From the NCBI RefSeq assembly GCF_003143935.1, contig NZ_QFRX01000001.1, positions 2,537,697 through 2,601,696 on the forward strand: DNA of 64,000 nt, in the 5' to 3' direction. This DNA is from Streptomyces sp. Act143 (GTDB lineage Bacteria > Actinomycetota > Actinomycetes > Streptomycetales > Streptomycetaceae). Below, piece after piece: positions 6,652-37,261 of the stretch; position 1 is the stretch's first letter; the number at the start of each line of letters is the position of its first letter. Position numbers and translations under genes: made by a program. The notes beneath the pieces are model-generated. The model was given only the letters and a program-made list of their open reading frames with translations. It did not search any database and was not told the DNA's origin.

Positions 6652-6656
6652 ACGCG

Positions 6657-6700
6657 GCCCCCGGGCCCGGCGTCCAGGAAAGGGAGGCCGGGCCGGGGGC
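6657..6700 (+). terminator. GC-rich terminator hairpin after the aldehyde dehydrogenase
   Basis: GCCCCCGGGCCCGGC (6657-6671) pairs with GCCGGGCCGGGGGC (6687-6700) apart from one bulged base. It starts 5 nt after the stop codon. There is no U tract, as is usual for Streptomyces terminators. Confidence 0.6.
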
Positions 6701-6703
6701 GCA

Positions 6704-6963
6704 TCAGGAAGTCGTGGTGGAGATGGTCCACGCGGAGGCACCCGCCGACGCGAACAGCACCCGGTCACCGGCCCGCAGCCCGGCCGCGGGCACCCGCCGG
6801 GGTCCGCAAGTGGTGGGTGCGCAGCGTCAGTCCCGGGTGCGCCGCGGTGAGCCGCGCGAGCCCGCTGCCGCAGGCCGCCCAGTCGCAGCGCCGCTCGGCG
6901 CGATCCGTCCGGCCGGGGCATGCTCCACCTGCCCGCGCACCGGCGACGCGGAACGGCTGCGCC
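6704..6963 (-). pseudogene. Possible decayed coding remnant
   Basis: This stretch between two genes shows protein-like reading on the minus strand that cannot be read continuously. One frame gives DWAACGSGLARLTAAHPGL and LTLRTHHLRTPAG; about 10 codons later a different frame continues as GLRAGDRVLFASAGASAWTI and ends at a TGA (6704-6706). The last part resembles the C-terminal strand of thiolase-fold ketosynthase III proteins (G-x-R-x-GD-x-V-x-F), but 25 residues are too few to be sure. A frameshift near 6795-6810 would join them. Without that, the segment is simply non-coding. Confidence 0.25.
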
Positions 6964-7027
6964 GCCTGGCGGGTTGAGGGCCTTACGGCCCCTGCCGGAG
7001 CAACGGCCTCCGGCCTACGGTGAGGCG

Positions 7028-7540
7028 ATGACCGCCGCCCGAGAGACCCCCGCGCCGTCGCCCGATCCCGGCGCAGCCCAGGAGACCCCCGCGCCCGCGC
7101 CGCCGGCCGGACCCGGCGCCGCCCAAGAGACCTCCGTCCCTGCCCCGTCGCCCGAACCGGGTGCCGCCCAAGCCTCCGTCACCCTGCTGGAGCGCCTCGC
7201 CGAGAAGCTCGGCGGAAAGGCCTCCGTCGGAGCCGTGTACGGCGAGCCGATCACCCGGGACGGCATCACGGTCGTCCCCGTCGCCCGCGTCGGCTTCGGG
7301 TTCGGCGGTGGCGCCGGGCGGGAGACCGGCACCGCGCGCACCGGTGAGGGCGGGGGCGGGGGAGGCGGCGTCGACGCCAGGCCGCTCGGCTACATCGAGA
7401 TCAAGAACGGTACGGCCGTCTACCGGCCGATCCGCGACCCCTGGGTGGACATCGCGCTCCCGCTCGCGGGCATGCTGGTCGGCATCGCCGGGTCCAGGTC
7501 GGCACGCGCCCTGACACGGAGGCGCAACCACCGCCACTGA
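7028..7540 (+). CDS. YtfJ/GerW-like protein with Pro/Ala repeat N terminus
   Basis: A 170-aa protein. The core (about 55-145) reads LLERLAEKLGGKASVGAVYG, GITVVPVARVGFGFGGG, a glycine-rich loop, then GYIEIKNGTAVYRPI: the pattern of the spore YtfJ/GerW family, many of which occur in actinobacteria outside endospore biology. The C terminus has one hydrophobic segment (IALPLAGMLVGIAGS) followed by basic residues, suggesting membrane attachment. The N-terminal 50 residues contain three imperfect copies of a Pro-Ala-rich unit with PGAAQET. Its role in Streptomyces is unknown. It converges on the ABC exporter at 7550 with only 9 nt between stops. Confidence 0.75.
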   Translation: MTAARETPAPSPDPGAAQETPAPAPPAGPGAAQETSVPAPSPEPGAAQASVTLLERLAEKLGGKASVGAVYGEPITRDGITVVPVARVGFGFGGGAGRETGTARTGEGGGGGGGVDARPLGYIEIKNGTAVYRPIRDPWVDIALPLAGMLVGIAGSRSARALTRRRNHRH

Positions 7541-7549
7541 GGCCGGCGT

Positions 7550-9304
7550 TCAGTCCGCCGTGGCGAGGAACTGCGTCGCCGCCAGCTCCGCGTACAGCGG
7601 ATCGGCCGCCACCAGTTCCCGGTGCGTGCCCACCGCCCGTACCCGACCCGCGTCCATCACCACGATCCGGTCGGCCATCGTCACGGTGGACAGCCGGTGG
7701 GCGACGACGAGCACGGTGGTGGTACGGGCCACGTCGGCGACCGTGTCGCGCAGGGCCGCCTCGTTCACCGCGTCCAGCTGCGAGGTCGCCTCGTCCAGAA
7801 GCAGCAGGCGCGGACGGCGCAGCAACGCGCGGGCGATGGCGACCCGTTGGCGTTCGCCGCCCGAGAGTTTGGTGCCGCGATGTCCCACGAGGGTGTCCAG
7901 TCCGCCGGGCAGCCGGGCCACCAGACCGTCGAGCCGGGTCGTCTTCAGCACGCGCGTCAGCGCGTCCTCGGCCGCCTCCGGGTTGCCCAGCAGCAGGTTG
8001 TCGCGCAGCGAACCGGACAGCACGGGCGCGTCCTGCTCGACGTACCCGATGGCCGAACGCAGCTGTGCCAGCGGCCAGTCGGCGAGATCGCGGCCGTCCA
8101 GGGCGATGGTGCCGGACTCGGGATCGTAGAAGCGCTCGATCAGGGAGAACACGGTCGTCTTGCCGGCGCCCGACGGGCCGACGAACGCGGTCATGCCCTG
8201 GGCCGGCACCGTGAACGTCACCCCGTGGTGGACGTACGGCAGATCGTCGGCGTAGCGGAAGCGGACGTCGGTGAAGGCGAGCGTGGCCGGTGCCGTGCCC
8301 GGCGTGGGCAACGGGGCGGGCAGACCGGCCGGCTCGGCGGGCAGCCGCAGCGCCTCCTGGATGCGGGACAGGGCTGCCGCGCCCGTCTGGTACTGGGTGA
8401 TCGCCCCGACGACCTGCTGGATCGGGGACATCAGATAGAAGACGTACAGCAGGAACGCCACCAGCGTGCCCACGTCGATCGCGCCGGTCGCCACCCGCGC
8501 CCCACCGACCGCGAGCACCGTGATGAAGGCGATCTGCATCGCCAGGCCCGCTGTGTTGCCCGCCGCCGCGGACCACTTGGCGGCGCGCACGCTCTGCCGC
8601 CAGGACTTCTCGGCGGCCTCGTGCAGCGTCCGCTCCTCGCGGTGCTCCGCACCGGACGCCTTCACCGTGCGCAGCGCACCGAGGATGCGCTCCAGCGAGG
8701 CCCCCATCACGCCGACCGCGTCCTGCGCCTGCCGGCTGGCCTTGTTGATGCGCGGCACGATCACACCGAGGACGGTTCCGGCGGCGGCGATCACGGCCAG
8801 GGTGACGCCCAGCAGCACCGGGTCGACGAGGCCCATCATGACGACCGTCGCCACGAGCGTCAGCCCGCCCGTGCCGAGGCCGACGAGCGAGTCGGTGGTG
8901 ACCTCGCGCAGCAGGGTGGTGTCCGAGGTGATGCGGGCCATCAGGTCGCCCGGCTCGCTGCGGTCCACGGCCGTGATGCGCAGCCGCAGCAGATACGACG
9001 ACAGCGACCGCCGCGCGCCGAGCACCACCGACTCGGCCGTGCGGCGCAGCACGTACGAACCGAGCGCTCCGACGGCCGCGTTGGCCACCACCAGGGCAGA
9101 CATGAGGAGCAACGCGCCGGTGACGGTGCGGTCGTGGGACAGGTCGTCGATCAACTCCCTTGCCACCAGCGGAAGCAGCAGCCCGGTGGCGCCCGTGAGC
9201 AGGGAGAGCGCGGCACCCAGCAGCAGCGCCCACCGGTGCGGCCGTACGTATCCCAGCAGCAGCCGCCAGGTGGGCGTGGCCGGCTCGGGCTCTGCGATGC
9301 TCAC
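7550..9304 (-). CDS. ABC exporter, fused membrane and ATPase domains
   Basis: A 584-aa half-transporter of the ABCB/MDR type. The first 310 residues carry six predicted membrane helices (for example [20 protein letters not shown] and [20 protein letters not shown]). The C-terminal nucleotide-binding domain has Walker [10 protein letters not shown] (about 378), the signature LSGGERQR (about 480), Walker [10 protein letters not shown] and the H-loop VVAHRLSTV. Such proteins dimerise and export lipids, peptides or drugs; the substrate cannot be told. The start is a GTG at 9304. Since it is a single gene, it probably works as a homodimer. The 220 nt between it and the divergent gene at 9526 contain no other gene. 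Confidence 0.92.
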
Positions 9305-24246: not shown

Positions 24247-25002
24247 TCAGTCCTGTCCCGGATCGCGCTCCAGCGTCGCCTCGATCTCCTGGACCACCCG
24301 CCACAGCGGCGCCCCGCGGCGGGACACCAGCACCACGACGTCCTCGGCCGCGTCGGCGCTTCCGGGGCCGGCGGGCGCGGGTGCCGGACCGAAGGCGGCG
24401 TGGACGTAGCCGAGCGCGTGGTCCATCTCGGTGCCCACGTCGCCCTTGCCGTCCGAGCGCAGCCAGGACCGCAGCGCGTTGTTGTGTGCCGCCGCGACGG
24501 CCGCCGCGATCACATCGGCCTGGAGGGAGCCGTCGCGCCGCCCGGCGAGGCGACGGCGGAGGTACTCGGCGAACGCCCGCTCGTAGCGCCACACCACGGA
24601 CAGCTCGTAAGCGCGCAGGCCGGGCACCTTCTTGGTGAGGCGGTAGCGCTGCACGGAGAAGGTCGGGTTCTCGGTGTACATCCGCAGGACCAGCCGGACC
24701 GCCTCGCAGACCCGCAGCACGGGGTCGTCCGCGTCGTCGCCGGCGGCGAGGAAGTCGGTGACGTCGGCCAGGGAGCGTTCGTGGTCGGGGAAGACCACGT
24801 CCTCCTTGGAGGGGAAGTAGCGGAAGAACGACCGCCGGCCCACCCCGGCCAGCGCCACGATGTCGTCGACCGTGGTCTGCTCGTACCCCCGCTCCAGGAA
24901 CAACTGGAACGCCGCCGCGACCAGGGCGTCGCGCATGGGCGGCTTGGCGGCCGCCGTTTCCGTCTTCTCGCCGCGCCGGGGCGCCGCGCTGCTGGAGCTC
25001 AT
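24247..25002 (-). CDS. TetR-family transcriptional regulator
   Basis: A 251-aa protein with an N-terminal TetR DNA-binding domain (about 25-75): ALVAAAFQLFLERGYEQTTV, DDIVALAGVGRRSFFRYFPS, then KEDVVF. The C-terminal 170 residues are helical and form the ligand pocket and dimer interface. The start is the ATG at 25002; an in-frame extension upstream runs into the operators and is rejected. Perfect and near-perfect palindromes before this gene and before the DUF35 gene indicate autoregulation and control of that gene. The ligand is unknown; acyl-CoA compounds are a reasonable guess given DUF35 (inference). Confidence 0.9.
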   Translation of the reverse strand: MSSSSAAPRRGEKTETAAAKPPMRDALVAAAFQLFLERGYEQTTVDDIVALAGVGRRSFFRYFPSKEDVVFPDHERSLADVTDFLAAGDDADDPVLRVCEAVRLVLRMYTENPTFSVQRYRLTKKVPGLRAYELSVVWRYERAFAEYLRRRLAGRRDGSLQADVIAAAVAAAHNNALRSWLRSDGKGDVGTEMDHALGYVHAAFGPAPAPAGPGSADAAEDVVVLVSRRGAPLWRVVQEIEATLERDPGQD

Positions 25003-25071: not shown

Positions 25072-25134
25072 TGCGCTGAGCGGTTCGACTGAATGCGCTC
25101 TGCGGTCCTCTGGTGTGGCCCGCCGGTGCGGTTC

Positions 25135-25173
25135 TCCGCTACGGCCCTCCGCTACGGCCCTCCGCTACGGCCC
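25135..25173 (+). repeat. Tandem 13-bp repeat, three copies
   Basis: Three perfect consecutive copies of TCCGCTACGGCCC (25135-25147, 25148-25160, 25161-25173) followed by a partial fourth. It lies in the non-coding interval between the TetR operators and the DeoR/LacI-type regulator's promoter. Confidence 0.9.
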
Positions 25174-25194
25174 TCCGTGGGGCCGTGTCGCTGT

Positions 25195-25225
25195 GTGATC
25201 GTATTGAACGGAAGTGATCGATACG
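25195..25225. promoter_or_regulatory. Operator-like repeats before the DeoR/LacI-type regulator
   Basis: GTGATCG occurs at 25195-25201 and 25214-25220 (19-nt period), the second extending to GTGATCGATACG. The word AGTGATCGAT recurs at 26412-26421 before the binding-protein gene, and GATCGATACG recurs (minus strand) at about 36302-36311 before the PL8 lyase gene. A shared regulator is suggested. Confidence 0.5.
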
Positions 25226-25311
25226 CTTGTGGGCGTAGAGTGAGCGCGTCCGGATCACGCTCCGCGTCGGCCCGGGGAACGTTCGACCAGGCCTCGCACC
25301 AGGGGGATTCC

Positions 25312-26406
25312 ATGCGACTGCATGTCGACCAGCGTCATGAGCGGGTGCTCGAACTCGTCCGGCAGCGCGGCAGCCTCCGGGTCGCCGAACTCGCCGCCGA
25401 ACTAGGGGTGTCCGCGGTCACCCTGCGGCGTGACGTGGAGGCGCTGGCCGCGCAGGGGCGGGTCCACCGGCTGCACGGGGCGGTGGTGTGGCCGGGGGAC
25501 CCGGCGGCCGAGACCCGGGCGCGGCCGGACCGTGCCGAGGGCGCCGTGATCGGAATGATCGTGCCGAACACCCAGAACCTCTTCGCGGACATCGTGCACG
25601 GAGCCCGGGAGGCCGCCGCCGCGCAGGGCGCCCGGCTGGTGCTGGGGGTGACCGGATATGTCGAGGCCGAGGACGCGGTGCAGGCCGAACACCTGGTCGC
25701 GGGCGGTGCGGAGGGGCTGATCGTGGCCCCCAGCTGGTTCGACGGCGTCCCCGTGGACGGCCAGGAGAAGTGGCTGCTGGAAAACGGTGTGCCCGCCGTC
25801 CTGGTCGAACGCCTGGCCCCGCCCGCCAACCCGGCCGCCGTACTGGACCGCGTCCGCACCGACCGCGCGCACGGGGCGGCCGTGGCGGTCAGCCACTTCG
25901 CCGCCCTCGGCCACCGCAAGGTGGCCGCGGTGCTCCAGGAGGGCCCGCACGCCGCCCAGATCACGGCGGGCTACCGGGCCGCGGTGGAGTCGCTGGGGCT
26001 CGACGTGGCGACGGGCGCGCCGACCGTGCGGGAGCACGGGGACTACGAGGCAAGCGTCGACTACCTGGTCGAGGCGGTGAAGAAGCGCGGCGTCACCGCG
26101 GCGCTCGTGCACAGCGACGCCGACGCCATCGTGCTCGTGCCCCGCCTCCAGGCCTGCGGTATCCGGGTGCCCGACGACCTCGCGCTGATCGTGTACGAGG
26201 ACGAGGTGGCCGGCCTCGCCGACGTGCCCCTCACCGCTGTCGCGCCGCCCAAGCGGGCGGTGGGGGAGCTCGCCGCGAAGCTGCTGCTCCAGCGGCTCGC
26301 AGAGCGGGCGAGCGGGGCGGCGGACCCGGCGCCGCGTCAACACCTGGACCTGCTCCCGGAGTTGAAGATCCGAGCGTCCTGCGGTGGACACCGTGCCGCG
26401 CGTTGA
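25312..26406 (+). CDS. DeoR-type HTH/LacI-type sensor transcriptional regulator
   Basis: A 364-aa hybrid regulator. The N-terminal 60 residues are a DeoR-like winged helix (RHERVLELVRQRGSLRVAEL, AAELGVSAVTLRRDVEALAA), joined to a periplasmic-binding-protein-like LacI sensor domain (AVIGMIVPNTQNLFADIVHG, AEGLIVAPSWFDGVPVDGQ, VSHFAALGHRKVAAVL, PDDLALIVYEDEVAGLADVP). This fusion is a known type controlling sugar operons. The ATG at 25312 is preceded by AGGGGGA. It lies directly upstream of the sugar importer operon on the same strand and probably controls it and itself. Confidence 0.88.
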   Translation: MRLHVDQRHERVLELVRQRGSLRVAELAAELGVSAVTLRRDVEALAAQGRVHRLHGAVVWPGDPAAETRARPDRAEGAVIGMIVPNTQNLFADIVHGAREAAAAQGARLVLGVTGYVEAEDAVQAEHLVAGGAEGLIVAPSWFDGVPVDGQEKWLLENGVPAVLVERLAPPANPAAVLDRVRTDRAHGAAVAVSHFAALGHRKVAAVLQEGPHAAQITAGYRAAVESLGLDVATGAPTVREHGDYEASVDYLVEAVKKRGVTAALVHSDADAIVLVPRLQACGIRVPDDLALIVYEDEVAGLADVPLTAVAPPKRAVGELAAKLLLQRLAERASGAADPAPRQHLDLLPELKIRASCGGHRAAR

Positions 26407-26412
26407 GGTGGA

Positions 26413-26445
26413 GTGATCGATCGCTGAGCGATGTTCGATCGTTTT
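26413..26445. promoter_or_regulatory. Operator cluster before the sugar-import operon
   Basis: GTGATCG (26413-26419) is followed by the perfect 13-bp palindrome ATCGCTGAGCGAT (26420-26432) and then TCGATCGTTTT (26435-26445). The last 11-mer is found again, exactly, at 36306-36316 before the PL8 lyase gene. These words stand directly upstream of the putative promoter at 26467. Confidence 0.55.
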
Positions 26446-26466
26446 GATTGTCTTGCGCGAACGCTC

Positions 26467-26495
26467 TTGACTCTGATCGTCCGCGCACAAAAGAT
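26467..26495 (+). promoter_or_regulatory. Putative -35/-10 promoter of the import operon
   Basis: TTGACT (26467-26472), 17 nt, AAAGAT (26490-26495), about 48 nt before the ATG at 26543. The operator cluster at 26413-26445 adjoins it upstream. The match to the vegetative consensus is partial. Confidence 0.4.
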
Positions 26496-26542
26496 GTCCT
26501 GCGACCGCCTCTTCCCGTACGAGGTCTCGTAGGAGACGTGCC

Positions 26543-27853
26543 ATGACGCGCACTTCACGTTCGTTCCGTAACGCTTCCCTCGCCGCTGTCGCGGCCCTCG
26601 GCCTGCTGGCCACCGCCACCGCCTGTGGCGGCGACGACTCGCCGGGCGCCGCGTCCGACGGCAAGCCGGTCACCCTGAAGTACTGGACCTGGACGCTCGG
26701 CGCCAAGTCGACCGTCGAGGCGTTCAACAGAACGCACAAGGACATCAAGGTCGAGTTCACGGAGATACCGGGCGGCACCGAGGGCTACAGCAAGCTCGCC
26801 AACGCGGTGAAGGCGGGCAACGCGCCCGACGTGGCCACGATCGAGTACCAAATGGTCCCCGAGTTCGCGAGCCAGGGAAACCTGATCGATTTGAGCGAGT
26901 ACGCCGGTGAAACGGTCAAGTCGAAGTTCCCGGAGTCCGTGCAGAGCCTCGTGACCTTCGGCGGCAAGACCTGGACGGTGCCCTACGACGTCGCCCCGCA
27001 GCTGTACTACTACCGCACCGACCTGTTCAAGAAGTACGGCATCGAAGTCCCCAAGACCTGGAGCGAGTTCAAGACCGCCGCGCAGAAGGTCAAGAAGCAG
27101 GACAAGAACGTCCGCCTCGCCTCCATGCCGAAGAGCGACCCGGCGCTGCTGGCCGCGCTGTCCTGGCAGGCCGGCGGCAAGTGGTTCACGACCGAGGGCG
27201 ACGCCTGGAAGCCCGGCGTGAACGACGCGGCCACCAAGAAGGTCGCCGCCTACTGGGACGGCCTCGTCAACGACGACCTCGTGCAGTCCTTCGCCGGCTG
27301 GAGCCCCGAGGAGACCAAGGCCCGCACCGACGGCAAGACCCTCTCCTTCCTCGGCGCGTCCTGGTCCGCGGGCGGCATGAAGACCTCCATGCCCGACCTC
27401 TCCGGCAAGTGGGCGGCAGCGCCCATGCCCAACTGGGGCACCGCGGCGAGCGGCAACTACGGCGGCACCTCCTACGGCGTCCTCAAGGGCAGTGACCACG
27501 CAGAGGCCGCGGCCGAGTTCATCACCTGGCTCACCACGAACAAGGCCGGCGTCGAGGCCCGGCTCGCCGACCTGGAGTCACCCAGCAGCGCCCTGCCGGC
27601 CAACCCCGAGATGCGTGCGGTGGCCGCCGCCGAGTTCGACACCGCGTACCTGAACGGCCAGGACCTCTACGCGCTCGCCTCCGCACAGGTCGACACCATC
27701 GTGCCCGGCTGGACGTGGGGCCCGAACCAGATGGACGTCTACACCGCCGTCCAGGACACCACCGCCAAGTCCGGCTTCGCGGCGGGCGTCGACGCCGGCC
27801 AGGAGAAGGCGGAGTCCGGCATCGAGGACCGGGGCCTCAAGCTCGCGAAGTAA
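26543..27853 (+). CDS. Lipoprotein sugar-binding protein of an ABC importer
   Basis: A 436-aa family-1 solute-binding protein. The signal (MTRTSRSFRNASLAAVAALG and following) ends in lipobox ATAC with Cys28. Family features: TLKYWTWTLGAKSTVEAFNR, NAPDVATIEYQMVPEFASQG, TWTVPYDVAPQLYYYRTDLF and LSFLGASWSAGGM. It is the receptor for the permeases at 28308 and 29285. The 454-nt gap to the first permease, with a repeat array and a hairpin, suggests that it is made in excess over the permeases by partial termination (inference). Confidence 0.9.
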   Translation: MTRTSRSFRNASLAAVAALGLLATATACGGDDSPGAASDGKPVTLKYWTWTLGAKSTVEAFNRTHKDIKVEFTEIPGGTEGYSKLANAVKAGNAPDVATIEYQMVPEFASQGNLIDLSEYAGETVKSKFPESVQSLVTFGGKTWTVPYDVAPQLYYYRTDLFKKYGIEVPKTWSEFKTAAQKVKKQDKNVRLASMPKSDPALLAALSWQAGGKWFTTEGDAWKPGVNDAATKKVAAYWDGLVNDDLVQSFAGWSPEETKARTDGKTLSFLGASWSAGGMKTSMPDLSGKWAAAPMPNWGTAASGNYGGTSYGVLKGSDHAEAAAEFITWLTTNKAGVEARLADLESPSSALPANPEMRAVAAAEFDTAYLNGQDLYALASAQVDTIVPGWTWGPNQMDVYTAVQDTTAKSGFAAGVDAGQEKAESGIEDRGLKLAK

Positions 27854-27902
27854 CGCCGCGCCCCTGCCCGCGCACCGCACCGAGCCACCCACGACCGGCA
27901 CC

Positions 27903-28105
27903 ACGCCACACGGCGCCCCACTGCGGCACACGGCGGTACAAGGTGTCCCGCAGCCGCAGCCGCAGCCGCAGCCGCAGCCGCAGCCGCAGCCGCAGCCGCA
28001 GCCTGCAACTCGTAGCTCGCACCTCGCACCTCGCAGCTCGAAAGCGCACCCTGCGCAGGGCAGTCCGCACCCCGCACAGCGCACCCCGCACCCCGCATCG
28101 AGTCG
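27903..28105 (+). repeat. Low-complexity repeat array with (CCGCAG)9
   Basis: Nine perfect tandem copies of CCGCAG run from 27948 to 28001 (54 bp). They are followed by degenerate 7-mers of the type CTCGCAC/CTCGCAG (28012-28042) and then a run of GCACCCC-type units (about 28066-28100). The stretch is non-coding by context: it lies after the binding-protein stop and before the terminator hairpin. The sequence alone does not say whether it is functional or the product of slippage. Confidence 0.9.
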
Positions 28106-28110
28106 GGCAA

Positions 28111-28137
28111 GGGGCCGTGTCCGGGTGACACGGCCCC
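28111..28137 (+). terminator. Perfect hairpin between binding protein and permease genes
   Basis: GGGGCCGTGTC (28111-28121), 5-nt loop, GACACGGCCCC (28127-28137): 11 perfect pairs. Its place between the binding-protein gene and the permease genes is typical of an intra-operon attenuating or RNA-stabilising structure in sugar importers. Confidence 0.65.
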
Positions 28138-28307
28138 GCCTCTCCCACGCGAACGTCCTCCCTCTCACCACCACGACAAGGCCGCCGCTCCCAGGCGAAG
28201 GCCACCTCGCCGTGTGCCCCGTACGGCACACGCCGGGCCGTCCCTTCGTCCGGCCGGCCTCGGCCCCCGTCCGCCCCTCCACCCGCCCCGCCCGTCAAGG
28301 AGCCCCC

Positions 28308-29288
28308 GTGGCACTCTCCTCCGCCCGGCCCGCGAGTCGGCAGGCCGTGCGGCGCCGGTCCCCGGCGCCGGACCAGGCGCCGGGCGCCTCGCCGCTCCGC
28401 CGCGGTCAGCGCCGTACCGCCGCCCTCCTCATCGTTCCGTTCTTCGTCCTGTTCGCCGTGGTCATGGTGGCGCCGATCGGCTACGCGCTCTGGATGAGCC
28501 TGTTCCGGGAGCAGTCCTCGGGCCTCGGATTCGGCGGCGCCGAACGGGTCTTCGCGGGCTTCGGCAACTACGCCGACGCCCTGGCCGACGACGGCTTCCG
28601 GTCCTCCTTCGCGCACATCGCGCTCTACTGCGCCCTCTACATCCCGGTCATGATCGGCGGCTCGCTCGGTCTGGCACTCCTCGTCGACTCGGCCCTGGCC
28701 CGCGCCAAGCGGTTCTTCCAGCTCGCCCTGTTCCTGCCGCACGCGATCCCCGGACTGATCGCCTCGATCATCTGGATCTACCTCTACACGCCGGGTCTGA
28801 GTCCGGTGCTCGACTGGATCGGCGCGCTCGGCGGGTCCTGGGACTTCTACCGTGACGACCATGTGCTCACGTCCATGGTCAATCTGTGCGCCTGGCAGTG
28901 GACCGGCTACAACATGGTCATCTTCTACGCCGCCCTCCAGGCCGTGCCGCGCGAAGTGATCGAAGCGGCCGTCGTGGACGGCGCCGGAGCCCTGCGCACT
29001 GCCCTGCGGATCAAGGTCCCGATGATCGCCTCCGCGGTCGTCATGACCGTTCTGTTCACCTGCGTCGGCGCGATCCAGATCTTCACCGAGCCGAAACTCC
29101 TCAACCAGCGGGGCGCGCCCTCCATCGACACCGAGTGGTCGCCGACGCTCTTCATCTGGAAGGCAGGGTTCGTGCAGCACGACTACGGGCTCGCCGCCGC
29201 CGCGTCCCTGATGCTCGCCGCGCTCGGCATCGCCCTCTCCTACCTCGTCACCCGGCTCGGCAACCGGTGGAAGGCGGCCACGTCATGA
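28308..29288 (+). CDS. Sugar ABC importer permease (MalF type)
   Basis: A 326-aa membrane protein. After about 40 polar residues the first helix is AALLIVPFFVLFAVVMVAPI, and the EAA loop is IEAAVVDGAGALRTALRIKV. The GTG at 28308 has AAGGAG 5 nt upstream and is preferred to in-frame starts near 28125 that lie in the terminator hairpin. The stop overlaps the next permease gene by 4 nt (ATGA), so the pair is translated together. It imports the sugar bound by the lipoprotein at 26543; no ATPase gene is present. Confidence 0.9.
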   Translation: MALSSARPASRQAVRRRSPAPDQAPGASPLRRGQRRTAALLIVPFFVLFAVVMVAPIGYALWMSLFREQSSGLGFGGAERVFAGFGNYADALADDGFRSSFAHIALYCALYIPVMIGGSLGLALLVDSALARAKRFFQLALFLPHAIPGLIASIIWIYLYTPGLSPVLDWIGALGGSWDFYRDDHVLTSMVNLCAWQWTGYNMVIFYAALQAVPREVIEAAVVDGAGALRTALRIKVPMIASAVVMTVLFTCVGAIQIFTEPKLLNQRGAPSIDTEWSPTLFIWKAGFVQHDYGLAAAASLMLAALGIALSYLVTRLGNRWKAATS

Positions 29289-30223
29289 GCACCCTCACCC
29301 ACGACACCCCGCCCACCCCCGCGCCCGCTCCCCGAGGCGCACCCGACCCGCGGCCCACGCGGGCCACCGCCGGGCGCCGCGCCTCCGCGAGCGTCCTGCT
29401 CTCCAAGGGCGTCGTCAACGGCATCCTGCTCGTCGCCGCGTTCTACACGCTCATGCCGGTCAGCTGGCTGCTGTTCGCCGCCACCAAGAACCACCGCGAC
29501 CTGTTCGCCACCTCGGGCTTCGCCTTCGGCGACTTCAACCTCCTCCACAACCTCGAACGCGTCGTCACCTTCGACGACGGCATCTATCTGCGCTGGTTCG
29601 GCAACAGCGTCCTCTACTCCGTCGTCGGTTCCGCCGTCTCCACGCTCCTGTGCGTGGCCACGGGCTACGCCTTCGACAAGTACGACTTCCGCGGCAAGGA
29701 GAAGCTGTTCGGTCTGGTGCTCGGCGGCGTCCTCGTCCCCACCACCGTGATCCAACTGCCGATGTACCTGCTGGCCAGCAAGGCGGGCATCGTCAACACC
29801 TACTGGGCGCTGCTGCTCCCGGCCCTGGTCAACCCGTTCGGCGTCTACCTGGCCCGCGTCTTCTCGGAGGGCTATGTGCCCAACGAGGTCCTGGAGGCGG
29901 CCCGCGTCGACGGAGCCGGCGAACTGCGCATGTTCGCAAGGATCTCCCTGCCCATGCTGGCACCGGGCTTCATGACGATCTTCCTGTTCTCGTTCACCGC
30001 CAGCTGGAACAACTTCTTCGGCGCCCTCGTCATGCTCAACGACGACTCGCTCTACCCGGTCAACCTGGGTCTGTTCATGTGGAACAGCGTCACCCAGCAG
30101 CAGCCCGAGTACTACTCCCTGGTCATCACGGGCTCCCTCGTCGCCGTCGTCCCGCTGATCGTCGCGTTCGTGTGCCTCCAGCGCTTCTGGCGCTCCGGCC
30201 TGACCGCGGGCGCGGTCAAGTGA
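29285..30223 (+). CDS. Carbohydrate ABC importer permease (MalG type)
   Basis: A 312-aa membrane protein with a Pro/Ala-rich cytoplasmic N terminus and about six helices (NGILLVAAFYTLMPVSWLLF first), and the EAA loop LEAARVDGAGELRMFARISL. Start and stop both overlap neighbours by 4 nt (ATGA and GTGA junctions), which shows a tightly coupled operon: permease, permease, hydroxyacid dehydrogenase. Confidence 0.9.
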   Translation: MSTLTHDTPPTPAPAPRGAPDPRPTRATAGRRASASVLLSKGVVNGILLVAAFYTLMPVSWLLFAATKNHRDLFATSGFAFGDFNLLHNLERVVTFDDGIYLRWFGNSVLYSVVGSAVSTLLCVATGYAFDKYDFRGKEKLFGLVLGGVLVPTTVIQLPMYLLASKAGIVNTYWALLLPALVNPFGVYLARVFSEGYVPNEVLEAARVDGAGELRMFARISLPMLAPGFMTIFLFSFTASWNNFFGALVMLNDDSLYPVNLGLFMWNSVTQQQPEYYSLVITGSLVAVVPLIVAFVCLQRFWRSGLTAGAVK

Positions 30224-31308
30224 CGATCCCGACGGCCCCCGCACCGGAAGGCACCCTCCTGAACGCCACCCGCCCCCCGTCCACCGCGCCCCGGCCCCGC
30301 CCGCACACCCTGCTCGCGATGGGCGCCGACATCCACCGCCGCCTGCTCACCGAAGGCGCCCTCGACCGACTGGACTCCGTGGCCCGCGTCGACACGGCCA
30401 CCGCCGTCACCGACCTCACCACCCCGGACCGGCTGCCCCCGGCGGACCAACTCGCCCGCACCGAAGTGCTGTTCACCCACTGGGGCGCACCCGAGCTGAC
30501 CGATGAGGCGCTGCGCCGACTGCCCCGTCTGCGGGCGGTCGTGCACGCGGCCGGCTCCGTCAAGCACCACGTCACCGAAGCCGTCTGGCGGCGCCGCATC
30601 GCGGTCTCCTCCGCGGCCGCCGCCAACGCCGTGCCCGTCGCCGAATTCACCCTGGCGGCCATCCTGTTCGCCGGCAAACGCGTCCTCGACATTGCCCAGG
30701 TCTACGCGACCACCCGCACCCGGCCCGACCTGCTCCCGTACTACAGCGGCCACGGAAACTACCGGCGCACCGTCGGCATCGTCGGCGCCTCCCGCATCGG
30801 ACGCCGGGTCATCGACCTGCTGCGCCCGCACGACTTCGACGTCCTGCTGCACGACCCGTACGTCGACGCCGCCGAGGCCCGGGCGCTCGGGGTGACGTCG
30901 GTGGCGCTCGACGAACTCGTCCGCCGCAGCGACGTCGTCTCCATCCATGCCCCTCAACTCCCCGAGACCCGGCACATGTTCGACGCCCGCCGTATCGCCC
31001 TGCTGAAGGACGGCGCCACGCTCGTCAACACCGCGCGCGGCTCGCTCGTCGACACCACCGCCCTGACCGCCCATCTGGTCACCGGCCGTGTCCACGCCGT
31101 CCTCGACGTCACCGAACCGGACGTGCCGCCCGCCGACTCGCCCCTGTACACGCTGCCCAACGTCCTGCTCACCCCGCACATCGCGGGCTCCCTCGGCAAC
31201 GAACTGCACCGGACGACCGACTGGGCCATCGACGAGGTCGCCCGCTACGCGCAGGGGCTGCCGTTCGTGTACGAGGTCGGCCCGGAGGAGCTGGCCCGCT
31301 CGGCCTGA
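30220..31308 (+). CDS. D-2-hydroxyacid dehydrogenase family protein
   Basis: A 362-aa NAD(P)-dependent enzyme. The Rossmann turn is GIVGASRIGRRVIDLL, the substrate-binding Arg is in NTARGSLVDTTAL, the catalytic Glu in DVTEPDVPP and the catalytic His in LTPHIAGS. The family interconverts 2-hydroxy and 2-keto acids (phosphoglycerate, glyoxylate and others). The N-terminal 30 residues are a nonconserved Pro-rich stretch, so the true start may be later. It overlaps the permease gene by 4 nt (GTGA), so its substrate probably derives from the imported compound, for example a sugar acid (inference). Confidence 0.87.
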   Translation: MTIPTAPAPEGTLLNATRPPSTAPRPRPHTLLAMGADIHRRLLTEGALDRLDSVARVDTATAVTDLTTPDRLPPADQLARTEVLFTHWGAPELTDEALRRLPRLRAVVHAAGSVKHHVTEAVWRRRIAVSSAAAANAVPVAEFTLAAILFAGKRVLDIAQVYATTRTRPDLLPYYSGHGNYRRTVGIVGASRIGRRVIDLLRPHDFDVLLHDPYVDAAEARALGVTSVALDELVRRSDVVSIHAPQLPETRHMFDARRIALLKDGATLVNTARGSLVDTTALTAHLVTGRVHAVLDVTEPDVPPADSPLYTLPNVLLTPHIAGSLGNELHRTTDWAIDEVARYAQGLPFVYEVGPEELARSA

Positions 31309-31448
31309 CGATGCACGAGCGGCACCCGACTCCAGGACCCTGTCGAGCCACGCCCCCGACAACCCCGGAACCCAGGCGAGCCGAGCCCCGGCTCTCCGAC
31401 TCCGCGACTCCCCGACTGCGCAACTCCCGACCCTTGAAAGGACGTTCC

Positions 31449-32894
31449 ATGCAGGGCCGTGTCCTCGTCGTCGGTATCGACGGCGTACGCCTCGACGTAC
31501 TGCGCCGCCTGCCCACCCCGCACCTCGACGCCCTGGCCGCCGACGGCTTCCTCGCCCCCGTCGAGGTGGACGCGGACACCCCCACCATGTCCGGACCGTG
31601 CTGGGCGACGATCGTCACCGGCGTCCGCCCGGCCAAACACGGCGTGTGGAGCAACGACTTCACCGGGCACCGCCTCGACGTCTTCCCCGACTTCGCCACC
31701 CGGCTCGCCGAACAGGACGGCCACCGCACCTTCGTCGCCGCCGCTTGGCGCCCGTTGCTGCAAGTGCGCGACGGAGGACCGCTGTTCCGGGCCCCGTCCA
31801 GGAGCGTGTTCATCGCACCGGCCGCGGACACCCCCGAGGCGTGGGAACGCTGCGACGAACAGATCACCGACGCGGCCGCGCACGTCCTCGCCGCCGACGA
31901 CGTGGCGGCCGCGTTCGTCTACCTCGGCGCTCCCGACGAGACGGCCCACTTCCTGGGCTGCGGCGAGGCGTACGAGGCGTCCGTACGACGGGCCGACGCC
32001 CGCCTCGGCAGACTGCTGGCCACGCTGCGCGCCCGCCCCGCCCACGCGGACGAACGCTGGACCGTCCTCGTCGTCACCGACCACGGCCATGTCGACGCGG
32101 GCGGCCATGGCGGCCGTACGCCGGCGGAGCGCACGGCGTGGCTGGCCGCGGCCGGTCCCGGCATCGGCGCCGCACCCGGCGCACTCCGCCAGGTGGACAT
32201 CGCCGCCCAGGCGTTCGCGGCAGTCGGCCGTCACCCCGACCGGCACTGGACCCTGGACGGGCGCCCGTTCGCCGCCGCCCCGCACGCCGTGCTCCTCGAC
32301 ATGGACGGCACCCTCGTCGACACCGAGTCCCTGTGGCTGCGCACGGTCCGCGAGACCGCGCCCGAGGCCGACGTGGCCCACGTCCTGGGCCGTTCGGTCT
32401 CCGACACCGCCGCCCACCTCCACACCCTCACCGGCGACGATCCGCGGGAACTGGCCGCCGACCTGGAGACACGCTTCCTGGCCGCCGTCCGCCAGGAGGC
32501 GACCCCACTGCCGGGCGCACTCGAACTCCTTGACCTGCTGCGGGAGTTCGGCATCCCGGCGGGCCTGGTCTCCGCCTCCTCCCGCCCCGTCATGGACGCC
32601 GTCCTCGACCTCCTCGGCACCGACCGGTTCGGCACCACGGTCGCCGAGGGTGAGACGCCCCGCACGAAACCCGCCGCGGACCCCTACCTCGCCGCGGCCC
32701 GGCGACTCGGCGTCGACCCCGCGGCCTGTCTCGCCGTCGAGGACTCGCCCACCGGCATCACCGCCGCCGAGGCGGCGGGCTGCAGGGTCCTCGCCGTCCC
32801 CTCGTACACCCCTGTCGCTCCCGCACCCCGCCGCACGGTGCTCCCCGACCTGAAGGGAATCGGCCCGCGCGAGCTGTGGACGGCAGGTCTGTGA
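31449..32894 (+). CDS. Fusion of nucleotide-pyrophosphatase/phosphodiesterase and HAD phosphatase
   Basis: A 481-aa two-domain protein. Residues about 1-275 belong to the alkaline-phosphatase superfamily, phosphodiesterase branch: metal Asp in VVGIDGVRLDVL, the nucleophile region PTMSGPCWATIVTG, metal ligands in GAPDETAHFLG and VVTDHGHVDAGGHGG. Residues about 280-481 are a HAD-IA phosphatase/phosphomutase: LLDMDGTLVDTES, SASSRP, a Lys in TKPAADPYLAAARR, and AVEDSPTGITAAEAAG. All key residues of both halves are present, so it may split a phosphodiester and then the monoester. ATG 31449 follows GAAAGGA. It belongs to the importer operon; a combination of this kind is unfamiliar to me. Confidence 0.85.
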   Translation: MQGRVLVVGIDGVRLDVLRRLPTPHLDALAADGFLAPVEVDADTPTMSGPCWATIVTGVRPAKHGVWSNDFTGHRLDVFPDFATRLAEQDGHRTFVAAAWRPLLQVRDGGPLFRAPSRSVFIAPAADTPEAWERCDEQITDAAAHVLAADDVAAAFVYLGAPDETAHFLGCGEAYEASVRRADARLGRLLATLRARPAHADERWTVLVVTDHGHVDAGGHGGRTPAERTAWLAAAGPGIGAAPGALRQVDIAAQAFAAVGRHPDRHWTLDGRPFAAAPHAVLLDMDGTLVDTESLWLRTVRETAPEADVAHVLGRSVSDTAAHLHTLTGDDPRELAADLETRFLAAVRQEATPLPGALELLDLLREFGIPAGLVSASSRPVMDAVLDLLGTDRFGTTVAEGETPRTKPAADPYLAAARRLGVDPAACLAVEDSPTGITAAEAAGCRVLAVPSYTPVAPAPRRTVLPDLKGIGPRELWTAGL

Positions 32895-32985
32895 CCTGCC
32901 GATCCGGCATTTTGTTCGACGCGCACCGGCCGCATACGATCGCCTCCCGGCGCCGTCGGGGAGAAGGGCCGAGAGGAAGACCCGC

Positions 32986-33810
32986 ATGCCGCGCATCCTG
33001 TACGTCACCGACCTCGCCTACGAGGCACGCGGGCGGCGGTACTGCGACGAGGACATCTTCCTGACCGCACGACTGCGTGAGGACTTCGACCTCGCCCTGT
33101 GCAACCCGAGGGACGCCGCGGCGCTGATGGACGCCTTCGACGCGGTCGTCGTACGCAACAGCGGTCCCGTCCTCACCCACCAGGAGGCCTACGACGCCTT
33201 CCGCGAACGCGCGCTCGCCACCGGGGCGCGCGTCTACAACCCGCTCTGCGGCCAGGCCGACATGGCCGGCAAGCAGTACCTGCTCGACCTCTGCGCGGCG
33301 GGCCACCCGGTCATCCCCACCGTCGACCGGGCCGAGGACCTGCACCGGCTGCCGGACACGGACCGGTACGTCGTCAAGCCGAAGCTCGGCGCCGACTCGA
33401 TGGGCCTGAAGATCGTCCCCGCCGACGAGGCACGCGCCCTCGCGACCGGGGACGTCCTCGTCCAGCCCTGTGTCGACTTCGCCTACGAGGTGTCCTTCTA
33501 CTACGTCGACCACGACTTCCAGTACGCCCTGTACGCGCCGCATCCCGACCGGCGCTGGCAACTGGAGGTGTACGAACCCACCGCGGCCGACCTGGAGTTC
33601 GCCCGCCGGTTCATCGACTGGAACACTCTCGACCACGGCATCCAGCGCGTCGACGCCTGCCGCGCCCCGGACGGCGAACTGCTGCTGGTCGAACTGGAGG
33701 ACCTGAACCCGTACCTCTCGCTGGACGTGCTGGAGGACGAGGCGAGGGACGCCTTCGTGACCGCGCTGAAGACGTCCCTGCACCGGTTCCTGGCGGCTAG
33801 CCCAGCCTGA
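32986..33810 (+). CDS. ATP-grasp-fold protein of unknown substrate
   Basis: A 274-aa cytoplasmic protein with ATP-grasp features: an N-terminal Rossmann-like part (ILYVTDLAYEARGRRYCDED, VVVRNSGP), the central ATP-binding segment RYVVKPKLGADSMGLKIVPA, and a metal-binding end with ELLLVELEDLNPYLSLD. ATP-grasp enzymes join an acid to an amine or thiol through an acyl phosphate. The substrate is not deducible. It lies 91 nt after the phosphodiesterase-HAD gene on the same strand, and its last 14 nt overlap the convergent PL8 lyase gene. Confidence 0.75.
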   Translation: MPRILYVTDLAYEARGRRYCDEDIFLTARLREDFDLALCNPRDAAALMDAFDAVVVRNSGPVLTHQEAYDAFRERALATGARVYNPLCGQADMAGKQYLLDLCAAGHPVIPTVDRAEDLHRLPDTDRYVVKPKLGADSMGLKIVPADEARALATGDVLVQPCVDFAYEVSFYYVDHDFQYALYAPHPDRRWQLEVYEPTAADLEFARRFIDWNTLDHGIQRVDACRAPDGELLLVELEDLNPYLSLDVLEDEARDAFVTALKTSLHRFLAASPA

Positions 33811-36244
33811 CCGTGATCTTCTGGGTGGCCCCGGCCGTTCCGCTCAGATCGCCGAACGTCAGCCGGAGCGAGGAACCCGTCGTCGCCGAGGTCACGGTGG
33901 ACGGCTTCGACAGCACGGCGGAGACCGCCCGGTTCCAGGTGAGGGTCAGGCTCGTCCGCATGCGCATCGGGTCGCTGACGCAGATCACCGCCGTGCCGTC
34001 GCTCCTCTCGCTGATCATCACGCAGCACGGGTCGCTCGCCACCAGGTCGCCGACCGTGCCGCCGAACCAGAAGTTGACGCCGGTGAAGCCGAGCGAGGGC
34101 ACGGTGACGCCCTGCTGGTCGTCCGTGTTGGCGAGGACGGTCAGCCAGCCCGTGGCCGCCGCCCGCGCCTGGGTCTGCGCCGCCGTGGCGCCCGGCAGGA
34201 GCAGATACGCGTAGGTGCCGTTCACCGGGTTCGTGCCGTGGTCGACGTACAGGGTCAGGTACTTGCGGTTGACGACCGTCGTGGAGCCGCCCTTGTTGAT
34301 GTCGCTCCACTTGCCGTCACGGGAGTCCCGGACGGCGTTGAACGTCGCGCCGCCGGGGAAGACGTAGCCGCCCATGCCGCCGATGTGCGCCCAGCCGGCC
34401 CCGGTGAACGTCCCCGACCAGGGATAGGCGGCGGAGTAGCCCGTGCCGTCGACGGTGAAGGTGTGGCTCCCGGTGGGGCCGAGGTTGCGGTTGTCGACGA
34501 TCGACTCGACCGCGGTGCCGTCGGTGCACTTGATGCCCGCGCCGAGGCAGACGATCGAGTCGTCCAGGCAGAACCACGACTTCTTCGCCATGAGGGTGGA
34601 CTGAAGTCCCTTGAGGTACTGGCCGATCGCGGCCCGCTGCCCGTCCGTCGCGCCGCCGACCCAGTTCACGTCCGGCAACGACGCGCCCCAGTCGCCGCCG
34701 GCCGCGTCCGCGAGCACCTTGCGGGAGGCGGTGGTGCCCGGCAGGCGATACGGGTCGACGGTGGGCCAGAAGGCGTCGCTGTACTGGCCGTTGGCGTAGG
34801 TGTCGCCCCACCAGTAGAGCATTCCGGAGCCGGTGTGCCAGCCGCGCAGATTCTCGCCGTTGCCGGTCTCGTAGTACGTGATCCTGCGGTCGGCCATGCT
34901 GATCGACGCGGCCCAGCCGGGTCTGCGGTGGGTGGCCCGGGCCATGCCGGTGAACAGGCGGTGGCCGGTCGGCTCGGCGACCGCGGTGACCGTCGTGTCG
35001 TCGACGACGCCCTGGAGACGGGCGAGGCCCGTCAGGCCGAGCGACGGGTCGCTCATCGGCGGGCTGTAGTAGTCGCGCTGGATCCAGCCCTTCACCAGAC
35101 CGCGCCAGCGCGCGTTCTCGGTGGCGCTCGCGCTCTGCCCGAGCAGGACGATCGACGCGAGGATCGGATGACCGCGCAGATGGTCGTTCTGCTGGATCTG
35201 CTTGGCGTCGGTCGCGGAGACACCCCGGCTGACGGCCCGGCCCGAGACCCCGTCCATCACCAGCCCGTTGTAGAGGAAGGGCGCCCAGGCGTTCTCCACG
35301 GCGTCGAACACGATCTGCCGGTTCGCGTCGGTGACCTGCCAGGTCGACCCGGCCAGCAGCGCGAACAGCATGCCGAGCCCGCCGAGCAGGACGGAGCCGT
35401 ACGAGCCGGTGTAGGGCACGGTCGTGTGCTGGACGAACGAGCCGTCGGCGTACAGGCCGTCGCCGCTCGTGACGTACGGGAAGACGGGGGAGAGCGCGTC
35501 CCGGGCCAGCGCCACCTTCGCGGAGTTCGCGCCGACGATCCCGCGCAGCGCCAGCACGCGGCACAGGTCGACCCGGTTGGCGCCGGTGCTGGTACCGCTG
35601 TAGCTCGCGACCGCCGAGTCGGGCACGAAGTGGTCCACCGCGGCGACGTAGTTCGCGATCTGCGTCGCCGACAGCGAGTCGTACATCAGCACACACACGT
35701 CGAGCAGGGCCTGCGGGGCGCCGATCTGCCAGCTGTACCAGTTGCCGTAGCGGGTCTGGCCGGCGTTGTAGACCTCGGAGTGCAGGTGGTCGAGCCCGGT
35801 GAGGATCGCGGACCTGAGGGCCGTGTCGCCGGTGAGGCCCGTGCCCTGCTGGCAGTAGGCCTGGGCGAGGGTGTTGAGGCGGTTGTAGCTGCTGTTGAGG
35901 TTGCCCGAGTAGCCGTACGACTCCTGGTCGGTGTCGGGTTCCGGGTCCGCGTAGACCAGGTCCGGCCACAGCGAACCGGACGTCGGTGCCATGGCGGACT
36001 GCCACTGGGCGGCGGTGGTGCCCAGTTCGGTGAGCCGGCTCTTGAAGGGCTCGGCGGTGGGGCTGAAGCCCTCCCCGAGGATGAGCGCCCGCCACTTCGC
36101 CCGCAGCGTCGCGAACTCGTCCGCCTCCGCGGCCGGCGCGGCGGACAGCGGGGCGGCGGTACTCGGCTGCGCGGGGAGGCCCAGCGCGACAGCCGTTCCG
36201 GTGCTTGCGGCCAGAAAGCCGCGACGTGACCAAGGAGTCGTCAT
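33797..36244 (-). CDS. Tat-exported polysaccharide lyase family 8 enzyme
   Basis: An 815-aa exported enzyme. The signal is of Tat type (WSRRGFLAASTGTAVALGL). An (alpha/alpha) toroid comes first, with the catalytic Asn in RYGNWYSWQIGAPQALLDV and the His/Tyr motif DGSFVQHTTVPYTGSYG. Beta-sandwich domains typical of PL8 follow (MARATHRRPGWAASISMADR, ETGNGENLRGWHTGSGMLYW). PL8 enzymes cleave hyaluronan, chondroitin or xanthan by beta-elimination. The ATG at 36244 is the signal-peptide start; a much longer reading upstream is spurious. Its promoter carries words shared with the import operon ending next to it, so import and degradation may be linked. Confidence 0.9.
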   Translation of the reverse strand: MTTPWSRRGFLAASTGTAVALGLPAQPSTAAPLSAAPAAEADEFATLRAKWRALILGEGFSPTAEPFKSRLTELGTTAAQWQSAMAPTSGSLWPDLVYADPEPDTDQESYGYSGNLNSSYNRLNTLAQAYCQQGTGLTGDTALRSAILTGLDHLHSEVYNAGQTRYGNWYSWQIGAPQALLDVCVLMYDSLSATQIANYVAAVDHFVPDSAVASYSGTSTGANRVDLCRVLALRGIVGANSAKVALARDALSPVFPYVTSGDGLYADGSFVQHTTVPYTGSYGSVLLGGLGMLFALLAGSTWQVTDANRQIVFDAVENAWAPFLYNGLVMDGVSGRAVSRGVSATDAKQIQQNDHLRGHPILASIVLLGQSASATENARWRGLVKGWIQRDYYSPPMSDPSLGLTGLARLQGVVDDTTVTAVAEPTGHRLFTGMARATHRRPGWAASISMADRRITYYETGNGENLRGWHTGSGMLYWWGDTYANGQYSDAFWPTVDPYRLPGTTASRKVLADAAGGDWGASLPDVNWVGGATDGQRAAIGQYLKGLQSTLMAKKSWFCLDDSIVCLGAGIKCTDGTAVESIVDNRNLGPTGSHTFTVDGTGYSAAYPWSGTFTGAGWAHIGGMGGYVFPGGATFNAVRDSRDGKWSDINKGGSTTVVNRKYLTLYVDHGTNPVNGTYAYLLLPGATAAQTQARAAATGWLTVLANTDDQQGVTVPSLGFTGVNFWFGGTVGDLVASDPCCVMISERSDGTAVICVSDPMRMRTSLTLTWNRAVSAVLSKPSTVTSATTGSSLRLTFGDLSGTAGATQKITVRLG

Positions 36245-36266
36245 GACGGCGGTTTCTAGCACGGTA

Positions 36267-36316
36267 ACGCTCAAACGCTCAATACATCGCGTCAAAATGA
36301 ACGTATCGATCGTTTT
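36267..36316 (-). promoter_or_regulatory. Promoter/operator region of the PL8 lyase
   Basis: A perfect tandem 8-mer (ACGCTCAA at 36267-36274 and 36275-36282), TTGACGC on the minus strand (36289-36295) and TCGATCGTTTT (36306-36316) lie 23-72 nt before the lyase start. The last 11-mer is identical to 26435-26445 before the sugar-import operon; its reverse strand also contains GATCGATACG, found before the DeoR/LacI-type regulator. Confidence 0.5.
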
Positions 36317-36430: not shown

Positions 36431-37261
36431 GTGCCGACACCGCCCGAGCCAGGGCAGCCGCACGAGCGCCCGGTCCTCGAACCGATCCGCGTCCTGCGCC
36501 CACGCCGCACCGACGCCCTCGCGGAACTGCTCAAGGACCTCCCCGCACGCACCACGGGCCACGAGTCCCTGGTGATGCCGCGGCGGCTCTCCGACGACGA
36601 GGACTTCAGCCACGAGGACTTCAGTCACGAGGACTTCAGCCACGAGGACTTCAGTCACGAGAACTTCGGTCGCGAGAGCTTCAGTGACCGGGACTGTGCC
36701 GCGGAGGACGCCACGCAGGAACTGCCGCCCGTCCCCGGCAGCCCCGGTGCGAGGCGCCCTCGGGCCCACCCGCGCACCCGTCCCGTCGGCGGCCCAGCCC
36801 CAGCCCCAGGCCCGGCCCCAGCCTTGGGCCCCGGCTTCGGATTCGGTCCGGGCCTGCGCCGCGCCGCCATCGTGGTCGCCGTCGGCGCGGCGGCCCTCGT
36901 CGGCTTCGGCTGCGCCCTGCTCCTCCCGGGCCGGGCGGACGGCACCGCCGTACCCCCGCCGTCCCCTACGCCCTCCACCTCACCGTCCGCGTCGCCCGCG
37001 CCCGCCACCATCGACCCCGACGGTGCCGGGACCCTCCGCGAAGGTGACAGCGGCCCCGAGGTGACCGACCTCCAACAGCGCCTGCTGCGCGTCCCGAACG
37101 TCTACGAGCACGGCTCCACCGACGGCACCTACGATTCCGACCTCACCGAGGCAGTGGCCCGCTTCCAGCTCTGGTACGGCATCCGGGGCGACGAGAGCGG
37201 GGTCTACGGCGACGACACCCGGCGCGACCTGGAGTCCCGGACGAGCACCGGCCAGGGGTGA
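36431..37261 (+). CDS. Membrane protein with DFSHE repeats and peptidoglycan-binding domain
   Basis: A 276-aa protein. The cytoplasmic N terminus contains five imperfect copies of a 5-residue unit (E-DFSH, about residues 56-83), then a Pro/Ala/Gly-rich stretch and one membrane helix (AAIVVAVGAAALVGFGCALL, about 144-165). Outside are a Pro/Ser/Thr-rich spacer and a C-terminal PG_binding_1 domain (LREGDSGPEVTDLQQRLLRV, EAVARFQLWYGIRG). This suggests an envelope protein that touches peptidoglycan. The GTG at 36431 follows GGAAGGAGA. Streptomyces has several such proteins of unknown role. Confidence 0.8.
   Translation: MPTPPEPGQPHERPVLEPIRVLRPRRTDALAELLKDLPARTTGHESLVMPRRLSDDEDFSHEDFSHEDFSHEDFSHENFGRESFSDRDCAAEDATQELPPVPGSPGARRPRAHPRTRPVGGPAPAPGPAPALGPGFGFGPGLRRAAIVVAVGAAALVGFGCALLLPGRADGTAVPPPSPTPSTSPSASPAPATIDPDGAGTLREGDSGPEVTDLQQRLLRVPNVYEHGSTDGTYDSDLTEAVARFQLWYGIRGDESGVYGDDTRRDLESRTSTGQG
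36598..36682 (+). repeat. 15-bp in-frame coding repeats
   Basis: Four to six consecutive 15-mers of the type GAGGACTTCAGCCAC/GAGGACTTCAGTCAC encode the DFSHE units of the PG-binding membrane protein. Copies alternate C and T in the third position of the Ser codon, and the last ones have diverged. The alternation suggests a 30-bp duplication (inference). Confidence 0.9.

Follow-up and report, generated by a model that had tools for sequence, protein, structure and literature searches.

A stretch of 64,000 nucleotides from Streptomyces sp. Act143 (contig NZ_QFRX01000001.1, positions 2,537,697 to 2,601,696; "the window" in the following) contains a regulator of the DeoR/LacI type, an operon for a sugar ATP-binding cassette (ABC) importer with a D-isomer-specific 2-hydroxyacid dehydrogenase, and a secreted lyase of polysaccharide lyase family 8 (PL8), and the promoters of all three carry the same operator. 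It is quite likely that these genes form a Streptomyces regulon of three promoters, dedicated to an acidic polysaccharide that contains uronic acid, and the regulon would work by the mechanism proposed below; insofar as sequence comparison can tell, the existence of a regulon is highly probable. The source genome has a size of 9.6 Mb and is of Streptomyces type, and the closest related loci were likewise found in Streptomyces. The central features of the locus are the following:

25194 to 25230, no strand assigned: operator region of the regulator promoter, TGTGATCGTATTGAACGGAAGTGATCGATACGCTTG, with two pairs of GATC-like cores 9 bp apart (25194-25213 and a second copy at 25213-25230)
25312 to 26406, forward strand: regulator with a DeoR-type helix-turn-helix (HTH; PF08220, 1.8e-14) and a LacI-type sugar-sensing domain (PF13377, 5.4e-28)
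26414 to 26423: further copy of TGATCGATCG in the importer promoter
26434 to 26453, no strand assigned: import-operon operator, TTCGATCGTTTTGATTGTCT, 13 nt before the -35 box
26467 to 26495, forward strand: predicted importer promoter, TTGACT - 17 nt - AAAGAT, read from the sequence; TTGAC and its distance to the operator are kept in orthologues
26543 to 27853, forward strand: sugar-binding lipoprotein (SBP) of the importer (SBP_bac_1, profile match 1.9e-41)
28236 to 29288, forward strand: ABC permease 1 (PF00528, 3.1e-13), start uncertain and perhaps near 28347
29285 to 30223, forward strand: ABC permease 2 (PF00528, 1.4e-11), overlapping permease 1 by 4 nt
30220 to 31308, forward strand: D-isomer-specific 2-hydroxyacid dehydrogenase (PF02826, 8.6e-47), overlapping permease 2 by 4 nt
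33797 to 36244, reverse strand: secreted PL8 lyase (PF08124, 5.6e-93; PF02278, 1.2e-74; PF02884, 3.1e-17) with an N-terminal Tat-type motif, SRRGFLA
36253 to 36282, reverse strand: predicted lyase promoter, TTGAGC - 18 nt - TAGAAA, read from the sequence and conserved in orthologues
36296 to 36315, reverse strand: lyase operator, AAACGATCGATACGTTCATT, 13 nt before the -35 box

An initial annotation of the window had pointed to three short words shared between pairs of these promoters. All three were found at the promoters named there and nowhere else in the window, namely AGTGATCGAT at 25213 and 26412 (0.05 occurrences expected), TCGATCGTTTT at 26435 and 36306 (0.00 expected), and GATCGATACG at 25216 and, on the minus strand, at 36302-36311 (0.07 expected). 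They turned out to be partial views of one operator consisting of two GATC-like cores 9 bp apart. GATC being palindromic, the site has a similar appearance on either strand, and this accounts for the different words seen at different promoters. Unseeded expectation-maximisation on 50 promoters of regulator, SBP and PL8 genes from related loci yielded the consensus AAACGATCGATACGATCAAT with the same two GATC cores, 9 bp apart. The medians of the best-site scores were 25.1 for regulator, 25.5 for importer and 25.7 for lyase promoters, compared to 10.1 for the 99th percentile of shuffled sequences, with the promoters used for training scoring high by construction. High scores at one or more of the three kinds of promoters were also reached by loci outside the training set (e.g., L162-L167, L169-L171, L174-L175, L189 and L201), and dozens of related species have retained the site. 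The operator was not found in ATP-grasp promoters or in the sequence before the dehydrogenase gene of the related loci (site-score medians below 0). A simpler guess with fixed spacing, GATCGATC-N10-GATCG, was discarded as unspecific, with 37 matches versus 23 expected.

Genome-wide pattern searches, the patterns of which were derived from the very sites they recover, are in line with a high specificity of this operator. A degenerate pattern built from the three sites had zero-mismatch matches only at the regulator, importer and lyase promoters of the 9.6-Mb genome, and the reversed controls produced only 0 and 1 matches at a tolerance of one mismatch. Off-locus matches with one mismatch in the same genome were mostly intragenic or far lower in score, and no convincing further regulon member was found among them. 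A related pattern had nine exact matches in 13 relatives, each of them at the promoter of a regulator, importer or lyase gene. One of these relatives (G159) possesses a second PL8 gene, 1.2 Mb away from the regulator, which bears an exact operator match. This distant site is the best evidence for a possible action of the regulator in trans.

The adjacent regulator is very probably the protein that binds this operator. Its DeoR-type HTH (residues 8-59) is fused to the LacI-type domain (residues 193-357), confirming the hybrid nature noted in the initial annotation, and a profile search reached no NCBIfam equivalog cut-off for it. The N-terminal HTH is shared with DeoR-family sugar regulators of the GlpR/AgaR/FucR type and the ligand domain with LacI-family sensors; it differs from both families in being a hybrid of the two, with an operator made of two GATC cores 9 bp apart. 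When lyase orthologues of 68% identity or more were compared, the operator was present in 17 of 17 genomes with the regulator and in none of the six without it (Fisher p 1e-5, a value that ignores shared ancestry). Two of the loci without a regulator (L177 and L178) have lost the operator and still keep the -35-like and -10 boxes at the lyase gene. By a hand count, 37 of the 53 lyases of the clade have a regulator homologue no more than 25 kb away. Regulators with operator-bearing promoters read MR-HVDQRH followed by VTLRRD, the recognition helix, with minor variants, whereas those at most 48% identical contain VTVRRD, VTIRRD, ETARRD or ETVRRD and are preceded by other promoter sequences. It appears very unlikely that the motif is a general promoter element or belongs to another DNA-binding protein, with the neighboring regulator being incidental: although the tie between protein and motif is drawn by comparison of genomes, the motif disappears together with the regulator, is confined to regulator, importer and lyase promoters in whole genomes, is present at the regulator's own promoter and shifts with the recognition helix.

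Upstream of the regulator promoter, a perfect 13-bp repeat, CTCCGCTACGGCC, is present in 3.4 copies (25134-25177). An MftR-like TetR regulator (24247-25002) is encoded divergently from the DeoR/LacI regulator, the operator lying in the intergenic stretch common to both promoters, and this TetR gene is kept beside the DeoR/LacI gene in several relatives.

The position of the operator gives a hint as to how the regulator might act. The 3′ edge of the 20-bp site is followed by TTGAC at a distance of exactly 13 nt in 27 of 29 importer promoters and, at exactly the same distance, by TTGAG in 22 of the 26 site-bearing lyase promoters. Judging from the predicted -10 boxes, the site would be centered near -59. 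Because the distance is constant in two kinds of promoters that are otherwise unrelated in sequence, a contact with RNA polymerase, i.e., activation, is suggested, and the regulator is likely a local activator that also binds its own promoter. There, upstream of a conserved -10-like TAGAGT, the two core pairs reach toward the -35/spacer region, which suggests autorepression.

Several points weigh against the proposed regulon or its activator mode, in addition to the circularity of the training scores and scan patterns mentioned above. The compared sequences are related by ancestry, so that the counts overstate their independence. The correlation between recognition helix and operator is imperfect, since two distant regulators (L174 and L175) contain VTVRRD and nonetheless have operator-like importer sites (24.6 and 25.0). 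Most L162-L171-type loci lack a separate operator for the lyase, which apparently lies inside another operon there. Moreover, the position of an operator alone does not prove activation, and members of the DeoR and LacI families are mostly repressors. The same regulon might thus be governed by a classical repressor, bound upstream of the -35 box where it would hinder RNA polymerase until a sugar ligand sets it free. We assign this alternative an appreciable probability, clearly below that of even chances; the extension of the regulator's own sites toward the -35 region would also fit it, whereas a 13-nt gap kept in two unrelated promoters across many genomes, with the -35 box itself outside the site, is better explained by polymerase contact than by a roadblock.

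According to the favored activator mechanism, the hybrid of DeoR HTH and LacI sensor would bind the paired GATC cores 9 bp apart, occupying at the importer and lyase promoters a class-I-type activator position near -59, 13 nt upstream of the -35 box, while the sites at its own promoter, directed toward the -35/spacer region, would probably serve autorepression. The secreted PL8 enzyme would cut the polymer by beta-elimination, and a sugar released by it would bind the sensor domain, upon which lyase, importer and dehydrogenase would rise together. The product would be taken up by the importer, with an ATPase encoded elsewhere, and be processed by cytoplasmic enzymes.

The initial annotation had assumed one regulator for extracellular cleavage, uptake and conversion. 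For cleavage and uptake, this assumption is strongly supported by comparative sequence, i.e., by the conserved operator, its constant spacing, its loss together with the regulator and the site in trans: the same operator occurs at all member promoters, is kept in orthologues and tracks the regulator. Conversion can be included only in part, as the dehydrogenase is a conserved core member across loci, whereas a downstream phosphodiesterase (PDE)-HAD fusion is optional and an ATP-grasp gene is probably not included. The picture is similar for gene order, the conservation of which had been named as a check: the succession of regulator, SBP, two permeases and dehydrogenase is constant and accompanied by PL8, and the fusion gene is found in only part of the loci. 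It is scarcely probable that the lyase is merely a neighbor without functional tie to the importer. In several genomes (L177, L179 and L193) the lyase is indeed kept without regulator and importer; against this, it is placed convergent, divergent or adjacent depending on the lineage, and its promoter bears the operator of the regulon with unchanged spacing, in one case at a distance of 1.2 Mb.

The importer genes together span 26543-30223. As in other Streptomyces importers of the CUT1 type without an own ATPase gene, an SBP and two permeases are encoded in an operon that contains no ATPase gene; the difference is that a specific operator ties this importer to a lyase and a dehydrogenase. The nearest solved relatives of the SBP are the sugar ABC binding proteins 6q5g and 6h0h, the ligand of the latter presumably being beta-1,6-galactobiose, and the galacto-N-biose/lacto-N-biose binder 2z8d. 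The long gap between SBP and permease 1 contains 9.3 copies of a perfect CCGCAG repeat (27948-28003) with further short repeats beside it.

Besides the two permeases, the SBP and the dehydrogenase, profile searches also confirmed the remaining domain calls of the initial annotation, i.e., the PF01663-HAD fusion and the three-domain PL8. Between dehydrogenase and lyase, the following features are located:

31449 to 32894, forward strand: fusion of a type I phosphodiesterase/nucleotide-pyrophosphatase (PF01663) with a HAD-IA sugar phosphatase, accessory module
32897 to 32909, forward strand: terminator-like hairpin followed by TTTTG, 3′ of the fusion gene (weak, with 4 in the region versus 2.7 expected)
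32986 to 33810, forward strand: DcsG-like ATP-grasp protein (weak sequence matches and predicted fold), probable bystander

The fusion is present in part of the loci, with the PDE half occurring alone in four of them (L008, L114, L122 and L128) and two separate genes in L169. As such split or half-only versions exist, the two halves might act sequentially. In 14 orthologues, neither half shows any variation in its metal-binding and catalytic-type residues, the roles of which we assume from what is generally known of the two superfamilies. The predicted model was of mixed confidence (pLDDT 72.5), poor in the PDE half, and was not used. L169 additionally shows tandem regulator homologues beside the PL8 gene (6065-8451), with the separate HAD and PDE genes downstream.

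The end of the ATP-grasp reading frame (33810) overlaps that of the convergent lyase gene (33797) by 14 nt, exactly as initially described. A profile search gave no Pfam match for this protein, which shows weak sequence similarity to DcsG and ATP-grasp ligases, and a model of moderate confidence (pLDDT 65.8) had DcsG (6jil, 8e-13) as its best Foldseek match. Its membership in the operon was rejected based on synteny, the missing operator and the weak terminator-like hairpin before the gene, and it is thus probably a neighbor outside the regulon. The gene adjoins PL8 in the three loci named above in which regulator and importer are missing, lies further off in L188, and adjoins the regulator in two loci lacking importer and lyase (L117, 11731-12567; L120, 2556-3410). 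A weaker operator-like site precedes it in these two (16.1 and 11.5, respectively), where the gene was apparently captured by the importer promoter through deletion. L119 represents a decayed intermediate with permease, dehydrogenase and lyase fragments.

All three PL8 domains of the lyase, i.e., the N-terminal alpha-helical, the super-sandwich and the C-terminal beta-sandwich domain, scored far over the cut-offs. Its nearest solved relative is the S. coelicolor PL8 2wco (4e-245, residues 37-796), followed by chondroitin AC lyase, with xanthan lyases close as well. The regions around the catalytic Asn, His and Tyr (GANRVDLC, SFVQHT and YTGSYG) are conserved in the alignment with 2wco and chondroitin AC lyase; at the catalytic Tyr, 2x03 departs from 2wco. 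While the three-domain architecture is shared with the S. coelicolor enzymes (2wco/2wda/2x03), the lyase of the window falls into a different Streptomyces clade. Elsewhere in the genome (G000:C1:3423941-3426205), a second PL8 is encoded that is 54% identical to it, has no link to the locus and is possibly the S. coelicolor-type enzyme. Divergently to the lyase gene, a protein with a peptidoglycan-binding domain is encoded, in which 5.9 copies of a 15-bp repeat (36597-36685) give rise to an acidic repeat; the lyase operator lies within the common upstream region of both genes.

Related loci contain various accessory genes, namely a GH35 beta-galactosidase (12 loci), a PF14099 lyase-type protein (11 loci), SIS plus class II aldolase genes (9 loci) or a seven-gene module with GFO/IDH/MocA and two AP_endonuc_2 proteins (7 loci), as well as a GH2 LacZ within the operon of L114 and GH89 in L121. 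Where regulator, importer and dehydrogenase form a cassette without PL8, it is accompanied by DUF2264, beta-helix or PF14099 proteins, and the promoter patterns differ. From these pairings, the cassette seems to serve repeatedly as a partner of various polysaccharide-cleaving enzymes. Paralogous cassettes, some with a DUF2264 or beta-helix protein, were also seen inserted in one conserved chromosomal neighborhood (L219-L222 and L227); there, TTGAC is preceded by a GATC-containing promoter pattern of another kind.

For hyaluronan and other glycosaminoglycans (GAGs), PL8 cleavage is followed by import, an unsaturated glucuronyl hydrolase and an isomerase (PMC11669647). Neither typical enzyme of this route is present in the genome studied here: GH88/GH105 (PF07470) is absent from it and from 22 of the 27 locus-bearing relatives, and KduI (NF002091) is absent from the own genome, other isomerase families not having been searched for. 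Hyaluronan/GAG loci such as those of Vibrio alginolyticus LWW-9 (PMC8222515) similarly group a PL8 lyase, an importer and catabolic genes, whereas the present locus combines a CUT1-like ABC importer, a DeoR/LacI hybrid and a 2-hydroxyacid dehydrogenase core in a genome without GH88/GH105 and KduI. Downstream catabolism is non-canonical or unrecognized: either the lyase frees a sugar without unsaturated uronate, as xanthan lyases do, or unrecognized enzymes process the unsaturated uronate.

Hyaluronan or chondroitin, the substrates of known PL8 enzymes, would be suggested by the best solved relatives, and the SIS/deaminase-like and class II aldolase genes beside some loci would fit an amino sugar. 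The second PL8, the missing hydrolase and KduI, and the GH35/GH2 beta-galactosidases at related loci, which do not readily fit either polymer, speak against it, so that this option is conceivable, with a probability well short of one half. Slightly more doubtful is a xanthan-lyase-like reaction in which a glucuronate side chain loses a terminal sugar or oligosaccharide, giving an import product without unsaturated uronate for which GH88 would be unneeded. The proximity to xanthan lyases, the absence of GH88/GH105 from most locus-bearing genomes, the accessory beta-galactosidases and the resemblance of the importer to galactoside binders are consistent with it, but PL8 specificities are not separable here by sequence alone. 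Only tentatively, the dehydrogenase core with optional PDE-HAD, GH35/GH2 or SIS/aldolase might constitute an undescribed route for PL8 products which bypasses GH88/GH105 and KduI and acts on a polysaccharide new as a PL8 substrate, perhaps one from a microbial wall or capsule that contains phosphodiesters.

No description of the locus or its operator was found in the open literature. A precise operator and a probable regulon are defined for a widespread, uncharacterized carbohydrate system of Streptomyces. PL8 loci without the textbook hydrolase and isomerase are shown to exist, so that both the polymer and the pathway can now be sought via a defined promoter.

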